The notes beneath the pieces are model-generated. The model had not been told where the DNA came from. It searched no databases and worked only from the letters and a program-made list of their open reading frames with translations. A DNA stretch of 64,000 bases from the NCBI RefSeq assembly GCF_028875915.1, contig NZ_JAPEHW010000001.1, positions 1 to 64,000 on the forward strand, written 5' to 3'. Source of the stretch: Pseudoalteromonas sp. G4. Its GTDB lineage: Bacteria > Pseudomonadota > Gammaproteobacteria > Enterobacterales > Alteromonadaceae. Each line of letters starts with the position of its first letter. The stretch's first letter is position 1. Positions 42,471 to 49,649 of this stretch are shown here, piece by piece. The translations under genes and the position numbers were made by a program.

Positions 42471-42600
42471 ATTCATCTAGGCCATAAATCAAAGATTGTA
42501 ACGGTGTAGGTTCCAGTGTCGCTGGGCAAAATAGTACATGCTGGTTCTCATAACCTAAGGCGGCATAAAGTGGTAATGTTGCATTATAAACCAAACACAC
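42469..42600 (-). pseudogene. possible C-terminal fragment of a GNAT acetyltransferase
   Basis: A minus-strand frame ending at 42469 reads NATLPLYAALGYENQHVLF then CPATLEPTPLQSLIYGLDE. The first piece resembles the last helix and strand of GNAT enzymes, where NxxxLPxYxxLGY is common. It is only about 45 codons, has no start and overlaps the end of the barrel-protein gene in another frame. It may be a remnant truncated by a past rearrangement, or coincidence. Confidence 0.3.
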
Positions 42601-43204
42601 TAATATGAATGCCTAAGCCATTATCAAAGCCGTTGTCGGCAAAAAAAGTAGAATAATTTAATTGAATATGTACATCTTGAGTTACCTGGTATTCAATAAA
42701 CCCTTTAGCATACATCGAACTTTCAAAATCACTGAGTTCTTGGCTTTCACAGCTATCGCAACGAAACACTGAACGTTCTATATTGTTATAGCGATAGCCA
42801 CCTAGTACGCCAATACTCAATCTATCAATACTGTCTGGGGTGAATTTAAAGCCTGCTTCAGCATACATTGCAAACCCGGTAATTGATGACTCTTTATTAC
42901 TCACTTGCCCAGTTAATTCATTTTTAACTGTTTGCGTAAATGGCGATGTATCATCCATGTACATATAGTCTAAACCAGTCGCAAACTGCAAGTATGGGTG
43001 GGGTTCACCTTTATAATAAAGTCCTATGGCATGTGCGTTACCAGCATTTATTAGCGGCCCATCAGAAGTGGCGCGATAGTCACTGGCAGTGAGGTTTTGG
43101 TAACTCACACCGATTGAATAATCATAAAAATTGATTTCACTTTTTGCATTAACATTTGCTGCGAATAAACACAGCGACATGCCAATTGTGCTGACTAGTT
43201 TCAT
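42584..43204 (-). CDS. small outer-membrane beta-barrel-like protein
   Basis: 206 residues with a signal peptide ending at NVNAK. The mature part alternates polar and aromatic residues in short strands (YSIGVSYQNL, HAIGLYYKG, LQFATGLDYMYM, MYAEAGFKFT, LSIGVLGGYRYNN, VHIQLNYSTFF) and ends IHISVFGL. It is compatible with an 8-stranded OmpA/OmpW-like barrel, although it lacks a terminal Phe. A Cys pair (RCDSCES) sits in a predicted loop. It starts 10 bases after the DUF1566 lipoprotein stop, so the two are one operon. Function unknown. Confidence 0.78.
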   Translation of the reverse strand: MKLVSTIGMSLCLFAANVNAKSEINFYDYSIGVSYQNLTASDYRATSDGPLINAGNAHAIGLYYKGEPHPYLQFATGLDYMYMDDTSPFTQTVKNELTGQVSNKESSITGFAMYAEAGFKFTPDSIDRLSIGVLGGYRYNNIERSVFRCDSCESQELSDFESSMYAKGFIEYQVTQDVHIQLNYSTFFADNGFDNGLGIHISVFGL

Positions 43205-43214
43205 AATCTATCTC

Positions 43215-44594
43215 CTAAAATGTGCTACAGTTGCGCACTAAATGCACGTAATGTTTGCTCTGCCGAGCACTGTAGAAAATAATGCTGTTTTGATACTGGT
43301 ATTGGTAACTTGCGTTATCGTTACGCGGCGCAGGTGTACTGCTCCACACTTCACCAAACGGAATATTTTTAAAGGCAAAGGGGTTAAGCGGTGGCTCTTC
43401 ACAGGCCAGTTCAATATTTTGTTGCAGCTCTTTTATACTGGGTAATCGCCAGGGGTTAGCGTTCGGGGTTTCGTCATTTAAATTAGCTGCGGCCTCAAAG
43501 GCTTGTTGCCAATCGAGCTTTTCGGCTTGGCCTTGCTCACAGTTTTCACCACTGAGCCCTATCACACATTTTTGCCAAATTAAGCCTGTTAATGTATCAA
43601 GTACATTGCCATTATTATCTTGCTTATAACGGTTACTTGGTGCGGTGTTTGCTTCGATGGTATTACAACGTTGTTGCGGGGCAAATAAACGACGGTTATT
43701 TACCAATTGCTCTTCTGCAGTTGGGCTTTCAAATTGATTAAGCAATCTGTTTTGACCACGCACCGCACGAATGTGACGGGTGGTTGAACTAACACCACCA
43801 GCGACTCGGCCAACATTAAAATCGACTGCCCAAATACTGCCTTCATCATCTACATCCAATGTGTTTGACCAGTAAAAACTGGATTTGGTGTTTGGGAAAT
43901 AATTTGTGTCTATCGCAGGGGTGAATGTGTTGTAGTTAACCAGTTCTTGTAACTCAATTTTACTTGGCAGACGCCAATCGCTAAAACCACAAACTGCTTT
44001 TTGATTTAGCCGATTTAAGTAACTTTGGCTATCGCATTCAATGTCACATTCACCACCATTTAATGTAGAAAATGCGGGGTAATTATCATCACGAAAACTA
44101 TAGGTGTGTGCGGCATCTTGTAAATCACCTGAGCCGGCAAAGGTTTTAACTTCCCAAATTAAACCAGTAACATTATCAAGCACACAAACAGGCGTAAACT
44201 CACTGTCAAACGAAGCATTACCATTGTTGTCTAATTTTGTGAAACTAAAACCTGCATGTCCGTCGTCATTATTAGTTTGCTCAATATCTGCACCCACATC
44301 ACAATCCTGTAAAAAGCCAGACTGACTATTGCAGTTTGGAAAATTACCTTCAGGATAATCACCTGCCAACAAAGAGCCGGTATCATTAAAGTCAATTTGC
44401 GCTTCATCACAAGTGCATTCACCATCACACATAGGTAAGGCAAAATCGATAGCGCTAACTTGATTTGAATTAGCACTAGAAGATGTTGCGGGTACCTCAT
44501 TGACCGCTTCATATTTACAAGAAGCAACAAAAACCAGTGCCGTCACTAACAGCGCATTTTTGATATTTGCGGCTTTATACACTTTTAACGCCAT
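43215..44594 (-). CDS. DUF1566 (Lcl-type) lipoprotein
   Basis: About 459 residues from ATG 44594, chosen because GGAG lies 8 bases upstream and the following signal peptide ends in a lipobox-like FVASC; the frame extends to 44702. After a Cys/Asp-rich linker come two copies of the DUF1566 module. They are marked by VTGLIWEVKT / CGFSDWRLPSKIELQELV / YWSNT and, later, LTGLIWQKCV / NPWRLPSIKELQQNIE / EVWSSTP. These modules occur in Legionella collagen-like adhesins and many surface proteins. Many cysteines suggest disulfide stabilisation. It is probably surface-exposed and co-transcribed with the barrel protein downstream. Confidence 0.85.
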   Translation of the reverse strand: MALKVYKAANIKNALLVTALVFVASCKYEAVNEVPATSSSANSNQVSAIDFALPMCDGECTCDEAQIDFNDTGSLLAGDYPEGNFPNCNSQSGFLQDCDVGADIEQTNNDDGHAGFSFTKLDNNGNASFDSEFTPVCVLDNVTGLIWEVKTFAGSGDLQDAAHTYSFRDDNYPAFSTLNGGECDIECDSQSYLNRLNQKAVCGFSDWRLPSKIELQELVNYNTFTPAIDTNYFPNTKSSFYWSNTLDVDDEGSIWAVDFNVGRVAGGVSSTTRHIRAVRGQNRLLNQFESPTAEEQLVNNRRLFAPQQRCNTIEANTAPSNRYKQDNNGNVLDTLTGLIWQKCVIGLSGENCEQGQAEKLDWQQAFEAAANLNDETPNANPWRLPSIKELQQNIELACEEPPLNPFAFKNIPFGEVWSSTPAPRNDNASYQYQYQNSIIFYSARQSKHYVHLVRNCSTF

Positions 44595-45078
44595 GACTTT
44601 GCTCCATTCAATTTGGCTTGATAAATAAAGTGCAAATTTAAAACCAGTGGTATGTAAAGTATGGACGATACACCTGATTAATAGAAAAGTATCTTTGTTC
44701 AAGTTATTGATAAATAATGGCTTGTTAATTATGTGTGGATGTTTTATTGGTGTTAGGCAGGGTAGTTCTTTAAGTAAATTTGCTATTGATAAGTTAAATA
44801 AATTGCAAATCGAGTTCTGAGTATTTGCAAAATGCGAAGCATTATCTGCGAGTTAATATCGATTGGTTATTGTAAAAGTATTACCGAAAAGCATTGGTTA
44901 AAAGTTCAAGTTATTGATTTTTATGTTTTTTATTTAAAGTTTCAGATGTTGCATGTAGCGGTATGGACTGATTTGGATTGGTAATTGCCTAGATGTTGTT
45001 AAGCGTGTTGCGTTGTTGAACATTAAACACAATAGCTTCACCGCCCTTAATTACGTTAGCAATCTATTAGGAGCCATT
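44595..45078. other. divergent intergenic region, no gene seen
   Basis: About 480 AT-rich bases between the lipoprotein operon and the DUF4956 operon. Apart from an AGGAG ribosome-binding site at its right end it contains no frame or RNA structure I can support. Both promoters should lie here. Confidence 0.4.
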
Positions 45079-45807
45079 ATGGAATCAGTCGACCCAATGT
45101 TAATTGCGTTTCTGCCTAAAGACATTCGCAATATGTTTTTTCCTTACGCAAGTGTGCAGCTTGCGTCACTGGTACTCAACCTTGTTATTGGTTTTGTGAT
45201 GGCGAGCATTATAGGCGCGCACTTTCGCAAATACGCCAGTGCCTTTTGTAATCGCCAAGACTTTTCGCGTTTATTTCCACTGTTAATGCTTAGTGTCATT
45301 TTAATTATCACTGTGGTTAAGGCTTCACTGGCGCTCGCGCTTGGTTTAGTTGGCGCGCTGTCTATTGTCCGTTTTAGAACACCGATTAAAGAGCCTGAAG
45401 AGTTGCTGTATCTGTTTTTAAATATCGGTATCGCGGTCGCGCTTGGGGCGGGTCAAACGTTAGCGGCCGTGGTGTCGTGCTTTGTCACCCTATTACTTAT
45501 TGCCTGGGTAAAAAAACGTGACAGCCAAACAAAGCAAGAAAATGGCCTATTTCTATCACTTAATCATGTATCAGATACAGGTTATCAAGACACTCAATTG
45601 GTATCAGAGCTCAAAGCGTTACTTGCAAGCCATGCTGACCGTATTGAACTGCGCCGCATTGACATTGCAGATACCCGTTTTGATGCCAGTTTCTTTATCT
45701 CAGTGAGCGATGAAAAGCAAATCGATGCTTGCATGAATGCCCTTTCAAATGCGTTTAATGGCATCAATATTTCGCTTCTCGAGCAACACAATATTGCAGG
45801 AGTCTAG
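45079..45807 (+). CDS. DUF4956 membrane protein
   Basis: About 242 residues from ATG 45079, which has AGGAG 8 bases upstream; an earlier in-frame start (45013) lacks one. Four or so transmembrane helices (about 20-150) include ALALGLVGALSIVRFRTPIKEPEELLYLF, whose GLVGALSIVRFRT core is the DUF4956 signature. The C-terminal 80 residues form a soluble alpha/beta domain (ELRRIDIADTRFDASFFISV) resembling a small ACT-like fold. It is the first gene of a three-gene operon with CotH-like and VTC-domain genes (2-base gap, then a 4-base overlap). It may be the membrane partner of the VTC enzyme. Confidence 0.85.
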   Translation: MESVDPMLIAFLPKDIRNMFFPYASVQLASLVLNLVIGFVMASIIGAHFRKYASAFCNRQDFSRLFPLLMLSVILIITVVKASLALALGLVGALSIVRFRTPIKEPEELLYLFLNIGIAVALGAGQTLAAVVSCFVTLLLIAWVKKRDSQTKQENGLFLSLNHVSDTGYQDTQLVSELKALLASHADRIELRRIDIADTRFDASFFISVSDEKQIDACMNALSNAFNGINISLLEQHNIAGV

Positions 45808-45809
45808 TT

Positions 45810-48446
45810 ATGCGTTTAGACACAGCAAAACAGCAATCAAACCGTGGTGAGCAACTTAAATTGGTATTCAGCCTGTTACTGTTAGCCATTTTGTTGTTGC
45901 CATCAACTGGTGCAGTAAAACGTTTTTTAGTTGATAAAGGGTTTGTCGCAACACACCTTTCAAGCAAAGAAAAAGCAGTGCAGTTGGCATCGAGTTTAAT
46001 CTCCTTGCCATACAGCTACCTTACAGCAAAAACCGATTTGCCACTTATTAAAGTTGATATTAAATACCAAGACTGGCTCAAGCTAGAAGAGGACAGACGT
46101 AGTGCTTTTGAGCGTGGCATCATTCCTGAAAATCGCAGTCAAGTGAGCGGTGTAATTTACTTTGGTAAAGAAAAGTACGAAGCAAAAGTAAGGTTACAAG
46201 GTGATATGCTTGATCATGTAAATAAAGCGGATCGCTGGTCACTTAAAGTTGAGTTAAAGAAAAAACAAGCAATGTTTGGTTCGCGCAAATTTGCCCTTGT
46301 TGCACCAAGTGTTCGGGTAAATCAGGGGCCAAACCTGTTTGCCAACAGTTTAGACGTGAGTGGCTTTGATATTATCTCGCCGCAAAATATCCCGGTTAAG
46401 TTAGTGGTAAATGGCGCTGATTGGGGCGTAATGTTGTTTGAACAAGCCTTTAGCCAAGACCTACTAGCCGTGAATAATCGCACGGAAGGTCTAATCACTC
46501 GCCTTGATTTGTTATCAGAGACAACCAATAGCCAAGGGCAAGTCACTCGCACTTTAAAACCGCGAGTGTTGCAACAAAAAACCATTTTAGCTAATCAGGC
46601 TCTTGCTAATCAGCGTCAAATTGCACTTGCATTACTTGATGACTTTTTAACAGGCAAACGTCCCGCGAGCGATGTATTTGATGCTGCGCGATTAGGTCAA
46701 TACCTTGCTATGGTTGATTTGTGGGGCGCTTGGCATGCATTAACCTGGAACAATTGGCGTTGGTATTACAACCCGCATATTGCCAAGCTCGAACCTATTC
46801 AAAGTGATGTGGCAGTAACCCCAGCTAAGCACATTTGGTTAATGAAACCACCAAGCCACCGTTTTGCATTAAGTAAAGCAATGCTTGCCGATGATGTGGT
46901 TAATGCGCACTATTTAGCGGCAAAAGAGCAGCTTTTAAGTTCGCTAGACTCTAAATTAATCCCAGCGCTTGAAAGCTATGACAAAACATTTATCAAATCT
47001 TTGCATCTTGATAGCCCGCTTATAACGCCTTTTAATTATCATGTGATGAAGCAACAAGCGGCTTGTTGGCAAAATGATTATCAAAGCGCTGAGTGTAGCC
47101 AAATAGCTGATGTCAGTAGTGAGCTTCATAAACAAATGGATAACTATAAAGCCAAAGCAAATTGGGATTTATACAGCCGTTTAAATGAGCAAGATGGCAA
47201 GCTTGTTTGGCAGGTAACCAATACTGAAGAGCAGCCGCTTATTATTAACAGTATCGAAGGCATCACTAAGCGCCAAGAAATCTCACCACTTGAGCAAATT
47301 AACGATGAATTACCGGTTAGAATTGCCCCGGGAGAGACACTCGCATTAACGCTACCATCTCGTTTAAATGCTATTTCAGCAAGGGTGGCTCTAAAAGGTA
47401 AAGGTAATGAAACCTTCTTTTTCCAAAAAGACACAGCACCGCTTGCTTTTATTCCTCGTGGCGGAATGAATCCGTTTGATAGTACTAAGTATGCTCACTT
47501 TATTACGCAATCTCAGAATAAATGGGAGTTTAAAGCGGGTGAGTGGGAAATAAATGATTATTTAGTCACTCCAACCAATACCGAGGTGGTTATTCCACAA
47601 GGCACCACACTTAAATTTGCGCGAAATGCGGGACTGATGGTGTTTGGTTCTTTATTTAGTCAAGGTACGCCAAATGCGCCTGTGATTATGACAAGACAAG
47701 AAAATACCTCTAAATGGTCAGGCCTGAGTGTGTTTGCGAAAGACCAAAATACGGCCCATCAAGTAGATCACCTTTACATTAGTTATGCTAGCAGCCCAAA
47801 ACTAGGTTTATGGCAACCGCGTGGGGCGATTTATTTTGTGAAAGGCAATGTCAATATGCGCACTGTGCAAATTACAGATAATCAATCAGAAGATGGCCTG
47901 AACATCATAAACGCAGATGTAAATATTTATGATTTAACCATTAAAAATGCACTTTCGGATGCGTTTGATTGTGATTTTTGTACAGGGGTTCTCGATACCA
48001 GTCAATTTACCAATATTGGATTTCGTTCAGGTGGTGATGGTATTGATGTAAGTGGGTCAACCCTCACAGTAAAACATGCCAAGTTCAATAATGTTCGCGA
48101 TAAAGCAATTTCAGCTGGTGAGCATAGCCAGTTGATGGTCAGTGATACTCATTTTAATGATGTGAATTTCGGCCTTGTAGCGAAAGATAATTCATTAATA
48201 GAAGCGCATCATGTGCGCGCATCAAATATCCAACATAAAGCGTTAATGAGTTATTCGAAAAAACGCATTTTTGGCCCAGCAGTAATGCGCGTTACTGATT
48301 ATCTCTGCACTGATAGCGAATGCAATATTAAACAAACCGCTGAACTAGGCAGTCAGCTATTGGTCAATGGCCTAGCTATTCAAAGCGAAGCGCTAGATGT
48401 GAAAGATCTCTACAACACAGTAATGAAATCGGACAAACCAAAATGA
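45810..48446 (+). CDS. membrane-anchored CotH-kinase-like protein fused to a beta-helix domain
   Basis: 878 residues. An N-terminal signal-anchor helix (about 17-33) precedes a CotH-like region (about 75-470) with VSGVIYFGKEKYEAKVRLQGD, SLKVELKKK, VKLVVNGADWGVMLFEQ and LEPIQSDVAVT, all positions conserved in the CotH atypical kinase fold. A linker domain follows. The last 280 residues form a right-handed parallel beta-helix with repeated short strands (IYFVKGNVNMRTVQITDN, GIDVSGSTLTVKHAKF, MVSDTHFNDVNFGLVAKDNS), like periplasmic copper-binding or pectate-lyase-like folds. It is probably periplasmic and tethered. CotH in Bacillus phosphorylates spore-coat proteins; the substrate here is unknown. 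Confidence 0.83.
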   Translation: MRLDTAKQQSNRGEQLKLVFSLLLLAILLLPSTGAVKRFLVDKGFVATHLSSKEKAVQLASSLISLPYSYLTAKTDLPLIKVDIKYQDWLKLEEDRRSAFERGIIPENRSQVSGVIYFGKEKYEAKVRLQGDMLDHVNKADRWSLKVELKKKQAMFGSRKFALVAPSVRVNQGPNLFANSLDVSGFDIISPQNIPVKLVVNGADWGVMLFEQAFSQDLLAVNNRTEGLITRLDLLSETTNSQGQVTRTLKPRVLQQKTILANQALANQRQIALALLDDFLTGKRPASDVFDAARLGQYLAMVDLWGAWHALTWNNWRWYYNPHIAKLEPIQSDVAVTPAKHIWLMKPPSHRFALSKAMLADDVVNAHYLAAKEQLLSSLDSKLIPALESYDKTFIKSLHLDSPLITPFNYHVMKQQAACWQNDYQSAECSQIADVSSELHKQMDNYKAKANWDLYSRLNEQDGKLVWQVTNTEEQPLIINSIEGITKRQEISPLEQINDELPVRIAPGETLALTLPSRLNAISARVALKGKGNETFFFQKDTAPLAFIPRGGMNPFDSTKYAHFITQSQNKWEFKAGEWEINDYLVTPTNTEVVIPQGTTLKFARNAGLMVFGSLFSQGTPNAPVIMTRQENTSKWSGLSVFAKDQNTAHQVDHLYISYASSPKLGLWQPRGAIYFVKGNVNMRTVQITDNQSEDGLNIINADVNIYDLTIKNALSDAFDCDFCTGVLDTSQFTNIGFRSGGDGIDVSGSTLTVKHAKFNNVRDKAISAGEHSQLMVSDTHFNDVNFGLVAKDNSLIEAHHVRASNIQHKALMSYSKKRIFGPAVMRVTDYLCTDSECNIKQTAELGSQLLVNGLAIQSEALDVKDLYNTVMKSDKPK

Positions 48447-49132
48447 ATACACAACCAAGAGAATATCGGTTTGAAGTAAAAGTGCCTGTGCCACTTAACC
48501 GATTACAAGAAGTTCAAATTTGGCTACAGACACACAACATGCTATTTAGACAGCACTATGCGCCAAGAGATATAAATAGCTTGTACTTAGATACGCCAAT
48601 GCTAGCTCGTTACGAAGAAAATTTAAGCGGCATTAGTACACGTAAAAAAGTACGCATTCGCTGGTATGGAGATTTAACCAATGGCGAAAAAGCAAAGCTA
48701 GAATTTAAACATCGTCAAGCGGGTAAAGGTTTTAAAGTGATCTATGACACAAAACTTGATTTTACTGAGCCGCAATTTGCTTGGCAGCATGCGCTTAAAT
48801 CAGCCTATAATAATCTACCCGTTGATGCTCAGTGTTTGTGGGCAACAGAGCATAGCCCGATTATTATTTGTCGCTATCATCGCGAATATTATATTTCCAG
48901 TGATGAAAAAATTCGCGCTACCTTTGATACAAAAATAGAATCCTTTGATCAGCGTTATCGTCAAAAAGCTAATTTAAGCAAAGGCATTCCACTTGGTGAT
49001 TATGTGTTATTAGAGCTTAAAACCAATGCTGAAAACGAGCATGAACTTAGTAACTTATTAGCAAGTTGCCCACTTAGACCTTCACGGCATTCTAAATACG
49101 TAAACTGTATTCGCAGTTTGATGTGGCAATAA
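48443..49132 (+). CDS. VTC-domain protein (polyphosphate polymerase type)
   Basis: 229 residues forming a single VTC domain of the triphosphate-tunnel type. It opens EYRFEVKVPVP (the first basic/acidic strand), then SLYLDTPMLARYEENL, the basic strand RKKVRIRWYG, KAKLEFKHRQAGKGFKVIYD, RYHREYYIS, IRATFD and the terminal VLLELKTNAENE Glu/Lys strand. In yeast Vtc4 this tunnel makes polyphosphate from ATP and feeds it through membrane helices. The bacterial protein is soluble, so the DUF4956 protein may provide the membrane part. Its start overlaps the CotH gene stop by four bases (ATGA). Confidence 0.88.
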   Translation: MNTQPREYRFEVKVPVPLNRLQEVQIWLQTHNMLFRQHYAPRDINSLYLDTPMLARYEENLSGISTRKKVRIRWYGDLTNGEKAKLEFKHRQAGKGFKVIYDTKLDFTEPQFAWQHALKSAYNNLPVDAQCLWATEHSPIIICRYHREYYISSDEKIRATFDTKIESFDQRYRQKANLSKGIPLGDYVLLELKTNAENEHELSNLLASCPLRPSRHSKYVNCIRSLMWQ

Positions 49133-49259: not shown

Positions 49260-49649
49260 GTGGAAAATTTAGTAAAATATCAAGGTAGCTGTCACTGTGG
49301 TGTTATAAAGTTTGAAGTAGATGCGCCTCAGACTATTGAGGTGGAAAGGTGTAACTGCTCTATTTGCAAAAAGGCAGGCTTTCTTCACCTAATCGTGCCG
49401 CTTCGTAATTTTCAGCTAAAGCAAGGTAAAGAATTTCTCAGTGAATATACCTTTAATACGGGCATAGCAAAGCACACGTTTTGTAAAGTGTGTGGCATTA
49501 AGCCTTTTTATACGCCACGTTCAAACCCCGATGGCATTGATATCAATGTTAACTGTTTAGATACGGTGCCAAAGAGTATCAAGATTGTCGAATTTGATGG
49601 TCAAAATTGGGAAAATAACGCACATACACTGGCACATAAAAGCACATAG
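49260..49649 (+). CDS. GFA/CENP-V-family zinc protein
   Basis: 129 residues. The GFA fold's zinc ligands are in GSCHCGVIKFEV, ERCNCSICKKAG and HTFCKVCGIKPFYTPRS. Family members include glutathione-dependent formaldehyde-activating enzyme (Gfa), but most are uncharacterised Mss4-fold proteins, and the name should not be read as activity. The start is GTG 49260 with an AGGG box about 11 bases upstream; no better start is in frame. It lies 127 bases after the VTC gene on the same strand and is probably separate from that operon. Confidence 0.85.
   Translation: MENLVKYQGSCHCGVIKFEVDAPQTIEVERCNCSICKKAGFLHLIVPLRNFQLKQGKEFLSEYTFNTGIAKHTFCKVCGIKPFYTPRSNPDGIDINVNCLDTVPKSIKIVEFDGQNWENNAHTLAHKST

Follow-up and report, generated by a model that had tools for sequence, protein, structure and literature searches.

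A DUF4956, CotH-fold/beta-helix and VTC-domain gene trio in Pseudoalteromonas as a possible polyphosphate-to-surface module

Organization of the gene trio and its divergent neighbors

The window, a stretch of 64,000 nucleotides from Pseudoalteromonas sp. G4, carries three adjacent genes on the forward strand coding for a DUF4956 membrane protein, a protein uniting a CotH fold with a beta-helix, and a VTC-domain protein. The first (45079..45807, +; 242 aa) comprises about five membrane helices followed by a ferredoxin/ACT-like C-terminal domain (residues ~154-239); the second (45810..48446, +; 878 aa) bears an N-terminal membrane anchor, and the third (48443..49132, +; 229 aa) has no membrane segment. 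At the first junction the DNA reads TAG-TT-ATG, which leaves 2 bases between the genes; at the second it reads AATGA, which makes the genes overlap by 4 bases. AGGAG-type ribosome sites precede the first and second genes. This arrangement, initially proposed from a sequence-only reading, is borne out by the ORFs, their joins, the Pfam matches, profile comparisons and the predicted model, and the topology suggested there (a membrane-embedded DUF4956 protein, an anchored CotH-like protein and a soluble VTC protein) agrees with hydropathy, which detects several hydrophobic segments in the first protein, a single N-terminal one in the second and none in the third. Scans for promoters and terminators returned no more sites than in shuffled sequence.

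Two divergently oriented neighbors encode a probable lipoprotein with two Lcl_C stretches (43215..44702, -; Pfam E 1.4e-53) and an outer-membrane beta-barrel-like protein of 206 aa (42584..43204, -; OMP_b-brl E 2.9e-6, just under the cut-off). Some, though not all, of the genomes with the window's gene order keep this pair beside it; the Lcl_C gene is likely to be accessory rather than part of the core, and its true start probably lies within the called ORF. A lipobox in its product was read by eye.

The VTC domain and its linkage to DUF4956

The VTC assignment is firm (106.5 bits against a curated Pfam cut-off of 23, E 2e-30), and the corresponding profile matches yeast VTC4 (3g3q, E 4.8e-15). 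Across all 63 VTC ORFs, the window's included and five Pseudoalteromonas loci counted twice (L019/L102, L022/L098, L024/L106, L026/L101, L028/L105), which slightly inflates these residue counts and also the conservation and distance counts below, VTC4 residues R264, R266, E279, E426 and K428 are kept in every sequence and R196, K200, K281, K294, R361, R373 and K458 in 62. We take these residues to line the polymerase tunnel and the glutamates among them to bind metal. Changed positions are R253 (N, H or K), H283 (R or K in 62/63) and K455 (mostly R). The claim that the tunnel residues of polyphosphate polymerases are present is thus largely upheld and not refuted by the alignment, twelve charged positions being unchanged in 62 or all 63 of the sequences and R253, H283 and K455 differing. 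The hydrolases of this superfamily are marked by an ExExK motif, to whose first Glu R9 of the VTC-type sequences (VTC4 R196) maps.

The most consistent contextual feature of the VTC genes is their association with DUF4956. All nine over-cut-off VTC matches in 299 Pseudomonadota genomes, the window's included, lie at most 3.4 kb from a DUF4956 match; the two genes adjoin in 17/17 loci from 295 genomes of the order, and among 14 control genomes both domains match in the same three. Furthermore, distances among the DUF4956 proteins track those among the VTC proteins (r 0.97 over 59 pairs, a value reached in 0/2000 permutations), the pairs being drawn from 62 VTC ORFs with 3 left out as short or unpaired, and related and repeated rows being included. 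No VTC match was found in the plasmid records searched. The co-occurrence of these families therefore extends widely beyond close relatives, and DUF4956, previously suggested as the membrane partner of VTC, is supported by these counts as its near-constant partner in the sampled Pseudomonadota.

The DUF4956 protein itself (Pfam E 1.1e-17) has a start codon common to its relatives, and a search by sequence found no solved relative. R98, R100 and K104 are invariant in it. Its predicted model (pLDDT 74) was compared with known folds, and the matches listed, which cover the C-terminal domain, point to a resemblance to ferredoxin-like and ACT folds; Foldseek gave no match at E 0.001 or better.

To place VTC relative to the conventional polyphosphate kinase we surveyed PPK1, as judged by the domain PF02503, with PPK2 lying outside the search. 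PPK1 is lacking in the window's genome and in all 8 genomes of the order sample with the window's type of operon (7 of them from one genus), and is present in 5/9 of the other VTC-bearing genomes of that sample. Within the window's genus it is lacking in 5/19 VTC-bearing genomes as against 14/89 others. We dropped the idea that VTC is a simple replacement for PPK1, since 14 of the 19 VTC-bearing genomes of the genus possess PPK1.

Alternative gene orders and a linked porin

A second gene order, in which VTC precedes DUF4956, has an OprO/OprP-type porin (PF07396) directly after DUF4956 in 17/17 loci. A profile of these porins matches OprP (2o4v) with E 9.3e-34, and all 12 sequences aligned retain R133, the central arginine of OprP. 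PF07396 also includes porins without phosphate selectivity; nevertheless, this further partner in one gene order suggests a link of the system to phosphate. Other arrangements are VTC - DUF4956 - CotH at two deep loci (L055 and L059), CotH - VTC - DUF4956 with the porin upstream (L060), and DUF4956 directly before VTC (G478 and G493). No OprO/P porin was found in the neighborhood of the window's trio or at L055 and L059. Of the seven VTC-bearing genomes of the phylum sample, the CotH and porin counts cover one.

The CotH-fold/beta-helix protein

Pfam detected no CotH match in the middle protein, and its Beta_helix match (E 1.4e-4) falls below the cut-off of that family. A profile of 31 aligned sequences (the window protein and 30 relatives) recovers Bacillus cereus CotH (5jd9) with E 3.9e-18 over profile positions 109-434, and the predicted model (pLDDT 90) superimposes on 5jda with Z 26.7 and rmsd 3.1 over 320 aligned positions (residues 74-425), delimiting a CotH-fold part at 46029..47087 (+; residues ~74-426). 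At the position of the second, metal-binding Asp of CotH the window protein has Asp333 (46806-46808), which is kept in 44/57 beta-helix-bearing members and missing in the remaining 13. The catalytic Asp position is occupied by His309 (codon 46734-46736): none of the 57 beta-helix members has Asp there and 52 have His, whereas all 13 members of the other type have Asp. The catalytic residue of B. subtilis CotH is D228, and the D228Q variant is termed catalytically inactive in PMC7821199; from numbering and spacing we infer that residue 224 of the 5jd9 chain is the same residue. The protein was earlier called a CotH-like kinase. The fold stands; the reading as a standard CotH kinase is not supported, and kinase activity may be lost because His replaces the catalytic Asp.

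The C-terminal part is a right-handed beta-helix (47478..48398, +), as beta-helix enzymes match the model over residues ~557-863, with AlgG (4nk6) aligning at Z 26.8 over 282 residues at 3.0 A. The helix that had been anticipated is thus present, but because the fold matches span these residues it is about 305 residues long in the model rather than 280. The nearest folds are AlgG, AlgE4/6 and the Vibrio lyase RbmB, the many beta-helices listed scoring Z about 22-27. The best-kept residues of the whole protein sit in this region and include an Asp/Lys cluster (D695, D717, D720, D722, D743, D746, D764, K765, K792, D793, K817, K818). The 41 loci found with peptide patterns were recovered with patterns partly drawn from the beta-helix, and the 57-member set was picked by a DKxxSxGE-like string, so that conservation of D764, K765, S768 and G770 in that set is circular. 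D695, D717, D720 and D746 lie outside this string and are kept in 57/57; they are also kept in 16/16 members found through VTC, 5 of which repeat loci found by the peptide patterns. Since the best-conserved residues lie here and the nearest folds are glycan-processing enzymes, the view that the beta-helix does no more than add a binding module is not supported. The catalytic motif of the alginate C5 epimerases AlgG and AlgE, DPHD, was sought in residues 545-878 and is absent.

Occurrence beyond Pel loci

Published accounts list cotH, a poly-phosphate polymerase and DUF4956 as accessory genes of Gram-positive pel loci (PMC7112168) and describe relatives of the trio, SIR_1592-1594, in the pel locus of Streptococcus intermedius (PMC12345266). 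According to the latter source, deletion of SIR_1592, the membrane/ACT protein, gives more Pel, deletion of SIR_1594, the CotH protein, gives less, and both reduce aggregation. Hence the earlier statement that the trio has no established function must be qualified, as two of its three members have deletion phenotypes in print. In the open-licence literature searched we came across no prokaryotic VTC-domain protein whose function had been demonstrated by experiment. A 2025 paper did not find the arrangement outside Pel. Judging the presence of pel by PelG only, we found PelG missing from 15/17 genomes of the order, the window's included, and in the other two encoded on contigs other than that of VTC; it is likewise missing from 20/21 named genomes and present in one. 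Contrary to the 2025 statement, the trio occurs in genomes without PelG. A Zetaproteobacteria stalk cluster was considered as a relative and set aside: the available part of its description (PMC8250860) has a CotH domain but no VTC, DUF or porin.

Functional interpretation

We tentatively propose that the trio constitutes a polyphosphate-to-surface module. As suggested by its fold and residues, the soluble VTC protein would make polyphosphate from ATP in the cytosol, and DUF4956, judging from its linkage, would carry the chain across the inner membrane, perhaps under the control of its ACT-like domain. The membrane-anchored middle protein would act on the outer side of that membrane, its CotH-fold part handling phosphate or polyphosphate for a surface polymer and its beta-helix holding or processing what is probably a surface glycan. 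In the second gene order the OprO/P-type porin could provide a route for the phosphate polymer through the outer membrane. Counting against the proposal are His309, the three changed VTC4 positions, the absence of a Pho-box excess upstream, the lack of an OprO/P porin near the window's trio and at L055 and L059, the presence of PPK1 in most VTC-bearing genomes of the genus, and the inclusion in PF07396 of porins without phosphate selectivity.

The ACT/ferredoxin-like domain also fits a module for phosphate homeostasis or signalling, which we consider unlikely, though the best of the alternatives: here DUF4956 would be a regulator of the MgtC kind that carries an ACT sensor, VTC would sense or trim cytosolic (poly)phosphate, CotH would be a scaffold, nothing would be exported and the effects on surface polysaccharide would be regulatory. 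An MgtC-type domain has been reported for SIR_1592, whose deletion raises rather than lowers Pel (PMC12345266). However, our comparison of DUF4956 with the MgtC profile is weak (hhalign E 0.085; E 0.0043 at 8% probability in a second comparison), and the porins that accompany the second gene order point to transport.

Slightly less probable again is that the beta-helix is the business end, as an exopolysaccharide lyase, hydrolase or epimerase, with the CotH part acting as a pseudokinase or as a platform for binding, and with phosphate supply or regulation as the main task of VTC/DUF4956. His309, the loss of the metal Asp in 13/57 members, the Asp/Lys cluster and the fold likeness to AlgG, AlgE4/6 and RbmB are all consistent with this; yet the window protein still has Asn315, Glu328 and Asp333 and so might carry out some chemistry on nucleotides or phosphate, and likeness among beta-helix folds is a weak guide to function.

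The VTC/CYTH superfamily also includes triphosphatases, in favor of a scavenging role. Upstream of 26 operons with the window's gene order and 16/17 of the second type, the best Pho-box scores (7-11 of 14) equal those of 2000 random stretches, and phosphate-starvation control of the trio is accordingly not supported. Import of polyphosphate by porin and DUF4956 for a VTC phosphatase or phosphorylase would suit the description of OprO/OprP as channels that take up phosphate or pyrophosphate (PMC9769906), but it is doubtful still further, given R9 in place of the first Glu of ExExK and no Pho-box excess, and it leaves the CotH/beta-helix protein unexplained.

The polyphosphate-to-surface proposal can be extended to a form that we regard as quite improbable, in which VTC and DUF4956 are a minimal prokaryotic polyphosphate synthase-translocase and the middle protein is an extracytoplasmic transferase using polyphosphate instead of ATP, with His309 carrying a phospho-histidine and the beta-helix presenting the glycan for phosphorylation. 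The active-site His of PPK1 carries such a phospho-histidine. The occurrence of the trio beyond pel-bearing genomes makes the job of three uncharacterized proteins testable, and raises the questions of whether two proteins, VTC and DUF4956, could both make polyphosphate and transfer it across a bacterial membrane, and whether a periplasmic enzyme could use polyphosphate where ATP is not expected.

Comparison with known systems

The yeast VTC complex shares with the window's VTC protein the VTC fold and the twelve charged residues of VTC4, but the window's protein has neither a membrane segment nor any other Pfam domain, its usual partner being DUF4956. The Bacillus CotH spore-coat kinase (5jd9/5jda) shares the fold and is recovered by the profile; the window protein differs in having His for the catalytic Asp, a fused beta-helix and a hydrophobic N-terminal segment. 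The C-terminal part resembles AlgG, an alginate epimerase of the periplasm, and other beta-helices active on glycans in fold and in acidic residues at one-turn spacing, although identity is 8% and the DPHD string is lacking. The OprP/OprO phosphate and pyrophosphate porins, to which the second-order partner is tied by PF07396, the match to 2o4v and R133, are partners in that gene order and absent beside the window's trio. Closest are the Gram-positive pel accessory genes, with the same three kinds of protein encoded adjacently, which in S. intermedius are a secreted CotH protein, a polyphosphate-polymerase domain and an ACT-domain membrane protein. The window's trio, on the other hand, is not contiguous with pel genes as judged by PelG, which its genome lacks, and belongs to a Gram-negative envelope with outer-membrane neighbors, and its middle protein has a beta-helix instead of the FN3 domain of SIR_1594 and His for the catalytic Asp.

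Composition and linkage of the trio

The sequence-only reading had placed three closely joined ORFs in this region, and the DNA of the window bears out their positions and joins: a DUF4956 gene (45079-45807, + strand), a CotH-fold/beta-helix gene (45810-48446, +) and a VTC gene (48443-49132, +). Pfam recognizes the first (E 1.1e-17) and the last (E 2e-30). The DUF4956 protein combines roughly five membrane helices with a domain that resembles ferredoxin/ACT folds; a link to MgtC is reported for SIR_1592, its Streptococcus intermedius relative (PMC12345266), and in our comparison the MgtC signal is weak. The VTC domain had been credited with the basic tunnel residues of polyphosphate polymerases, and no general loss of these is seen among 63 sequences, the window's own plus 62 further VTC ORFs (a first table covered 29). 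Yeast VTC4 R264, R266, E279, E426 and K428 are retained in 63/63 and R196, K200, K281, K294, R361, R373 and K458 in 62/63; three positions differ, with R253 replaced by N, H or K, H283 by R or K in 62 sequences, and K455 mostly by R.

VTC matches above the cut-off occur in 17 of 295 genomes of the order, with one further match below it. DUF4956 adjoins VTC in all 17 loci and a CotH relative is present in 14, one of the remaining three (L070) ending at a contig edge. Among 299 genomes of the phylum, including that of the window, the nine VTC matches over the cut-off, spread over seven genomes, all have a DUF4956 match at most 3.4 kb away, a count that concerns VTC and DUF4956, CotH having been examined in the window's genome alone of the seven. 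DUF4956 itself gives 10 matches in eight genomes of this sample, one of which (G628) is without VTC. The VTC and DUF4956 distances correlate with r 0.97 (59 pairs out of 62 VTC ORFs). Further trios, from Colwellia, Vibrio, Photobacterium, Shewanella, Endozoicomonas, SAR86, Myxococcales and Saprospiraceae, came from a contig scan of 41 loci, some partial and some with CotH copies lacking VTC or DUF4956. One SAR86 contig (L041, 9169-17330) has a pair of complete trios, arranged back to back with one on each strand, and Saprospiraceae-type contigs (L040, L045, L049, L050, L053) carry tandem CotH-type genes, after DUF4956 or alone. A decayed copy of the window's type (L115, genome G304) has a fragmented CotH and a short VTC with a stop inside the match; a search for DUF4956 at this locus found none.

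Gene orders and neighbors

Two main gene orders, both found in the window's genus, can be recognized: DUF4956 - CotH/beta-helix - VTC, as in the window, and VTC - DUF4956 - phosphate-selective porin O/P. In the second, Pfam places the porin directly 3' of DUF4956 in 8/8 loci of the order and 9/9 of the genus (E 5.2e-50 to 4e-46 in the latter), and CotH lies ahead of VTC in 5/8 and 8/9 loci, respectively. Locus L060 is mixed, with beta-helix CotH, VTC and DUF4956 in that order and a porin of the same family two genes upstream, while L055 and L059 have VTC - DUF4956 - CotH; no such porin was found at these last two, at first-type loci or in the window. OprP R133 is retained in 12/12 aligned porins, and the residues aligned with R59, R60 and K121, all four of which we take to have a role in the porin, are invariant or nearly so.

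Some first-type loci are accompanied by a divergent pair encoding a probable Lcl_C lipoprotein, with two Lcl_C stretches in the window, and a small outer-membrane beta-barrel-like protein (window 42584-44702). The pair is present in eight loci of the neighborhood clustering and in 7/8 intact first-type loci of the genus set, five of those seven repeating earlier loci. Its range comprises Pseudoalteromonas, one Colwellia and one Shewanella, and it did not cluster with the Vibrio, Photobacterium, Endozoicomonas or other Shewanella-like loci. Directly after VTC, locus L064 (7461-9641, - strand) encodes a probably secreted protein of 726 aa without a Pfam match; it has six relatives, and the family lies near the trio in seven loci of one genus, likely Shewanella. 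Downstream of the window's trio is a GFA-type gene (49260-49649), and a Cys-rich protein that looks similar by eye lies near L061 (5268-5609), a recurrence that is probably due to chance.

The middle protein

Pfam CotH matches neither the middle protein nor anything else in its genome. A profile of 31 aligned proteins of its type nevertheless retrieves Bacillus cereus CotH (E 3.9e-18), and five of six scanned beta-helix-type relatives (L037, L039, L046, L055, L060) match Pfam CotH directly (E 9.5e-23 to 8.6e-7), L044 being the sole exception. In an AlphaFold2 model (pLDDT 90), residues 74-425 match CotH with a Z of 26.7 and residues ~557-863 form a right-handed beta-helix. The closest relative in the contig scan is from Pseudoalteromonas sp. 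P1-9 (78% identity), on which basis we assign the window to this genus.

The D228Q form of B. subtilis CotH is described as inactive (PMC7821199). We take position 224 of the 5jd9 chain to be this catalytic Asp, and the corresponding residue of the window protein is His309. The earlier proposal of a CotH-like kinase fused to a beta-helix holds for both folds and is not supported at the catalytic Asp. Across 79 CotH-type ORFs of at least 500 aa, this position is Asp in 13/13 second-type proteins. Among the 57 ORFs that carry the beta-helix string, 52 have His, none has Asp, and the remaining five have A, A, N, Q and Y; of nine others, eight have His and one is unaligned. The second Asp, D333, is retained in 44/57, and D695, D717, D720 and D746 of the beta-helix in 57/57, in a set chosen by a beta-helix string that lies outside these four positions; 22 divergent members keep all four in 22/22 and D333 in nine. 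The closest folds to the helix are AlgG (Z 26.8), AlgE6 and AlgE4 (25.3-25.6), tailspikes, the Vibrio lyase RbmB (23.1) and polygalacturonases, the scores to AlgG, AlgE and RbmB being near those of many other beta-helices. The better conservation of the four aspartates than of D333, together with these matches, makes an active role for the beta-helix more likely than that of an inert tag.

Proposed function

The simplest account is that VTC would make polyphosphate in the cytosol, that this would pass through DUF4956, and that the CotH/beta-helix protein would use it at the surface. Homology and linkage point to the first two steps, and the folds and streptococcal deletion phenotypes to the third. 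All three trio genes have been deleted in S. intermedius: loss of SIR_1592 increases and loss of SIR_1594 (CotH) decreases Pel, both lower aggregation by >50% in one medium, no change is reported for SIR_1593, and Pel is still produced in each mutant (PMC12345266). Against this account count the His in place of the catalytic Asp, the silent SIR_1593 deletion, the lack of a Pho-box signal upstream of the trio operons and the lack of a clear trade-off between VTC and PPK1 across the genus. The PPK1 domain (PF02503) was searched for without a match in genome G000, rated 100% complete, and is also missing in 18 others of 108 genus genomes.

Relationship to pel loci

The trio is real, conserved and partly known already. 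In earlier work, cotH, a poly-phosphate polymerase and DUF4956 adjoin pel genes in streptococci, clostridia and bifidobacteria (PMC7112168), and at a Clostridium perfringens locus VTC and CotH are listed along with small membrane proteins that bear a tubulin/FtsZ annotation (PMC2879425). The presence of pel was judged by PelG alone, and PelG is absent from 15/17 VTC-DUF4956 genomes of the order, including that of the window, and on a different contig from VTC-DUF4956 in the other two; it is likewise absent from 20/21 named trio genomes, several of which are MAGs of unstated completeness. The search behind a 2025 statement that the arrangement was not found outside Pel may have covered a subset of groups or a single gene order. 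The window's trio belongs to a variant of the known one that occurs in Gram-negative bacteria, mostly without pel, and bears a beta-helix; the present analysis adds OprO/P-type porins as a further partner family in the sister gene order and an altered view of the middle protein.
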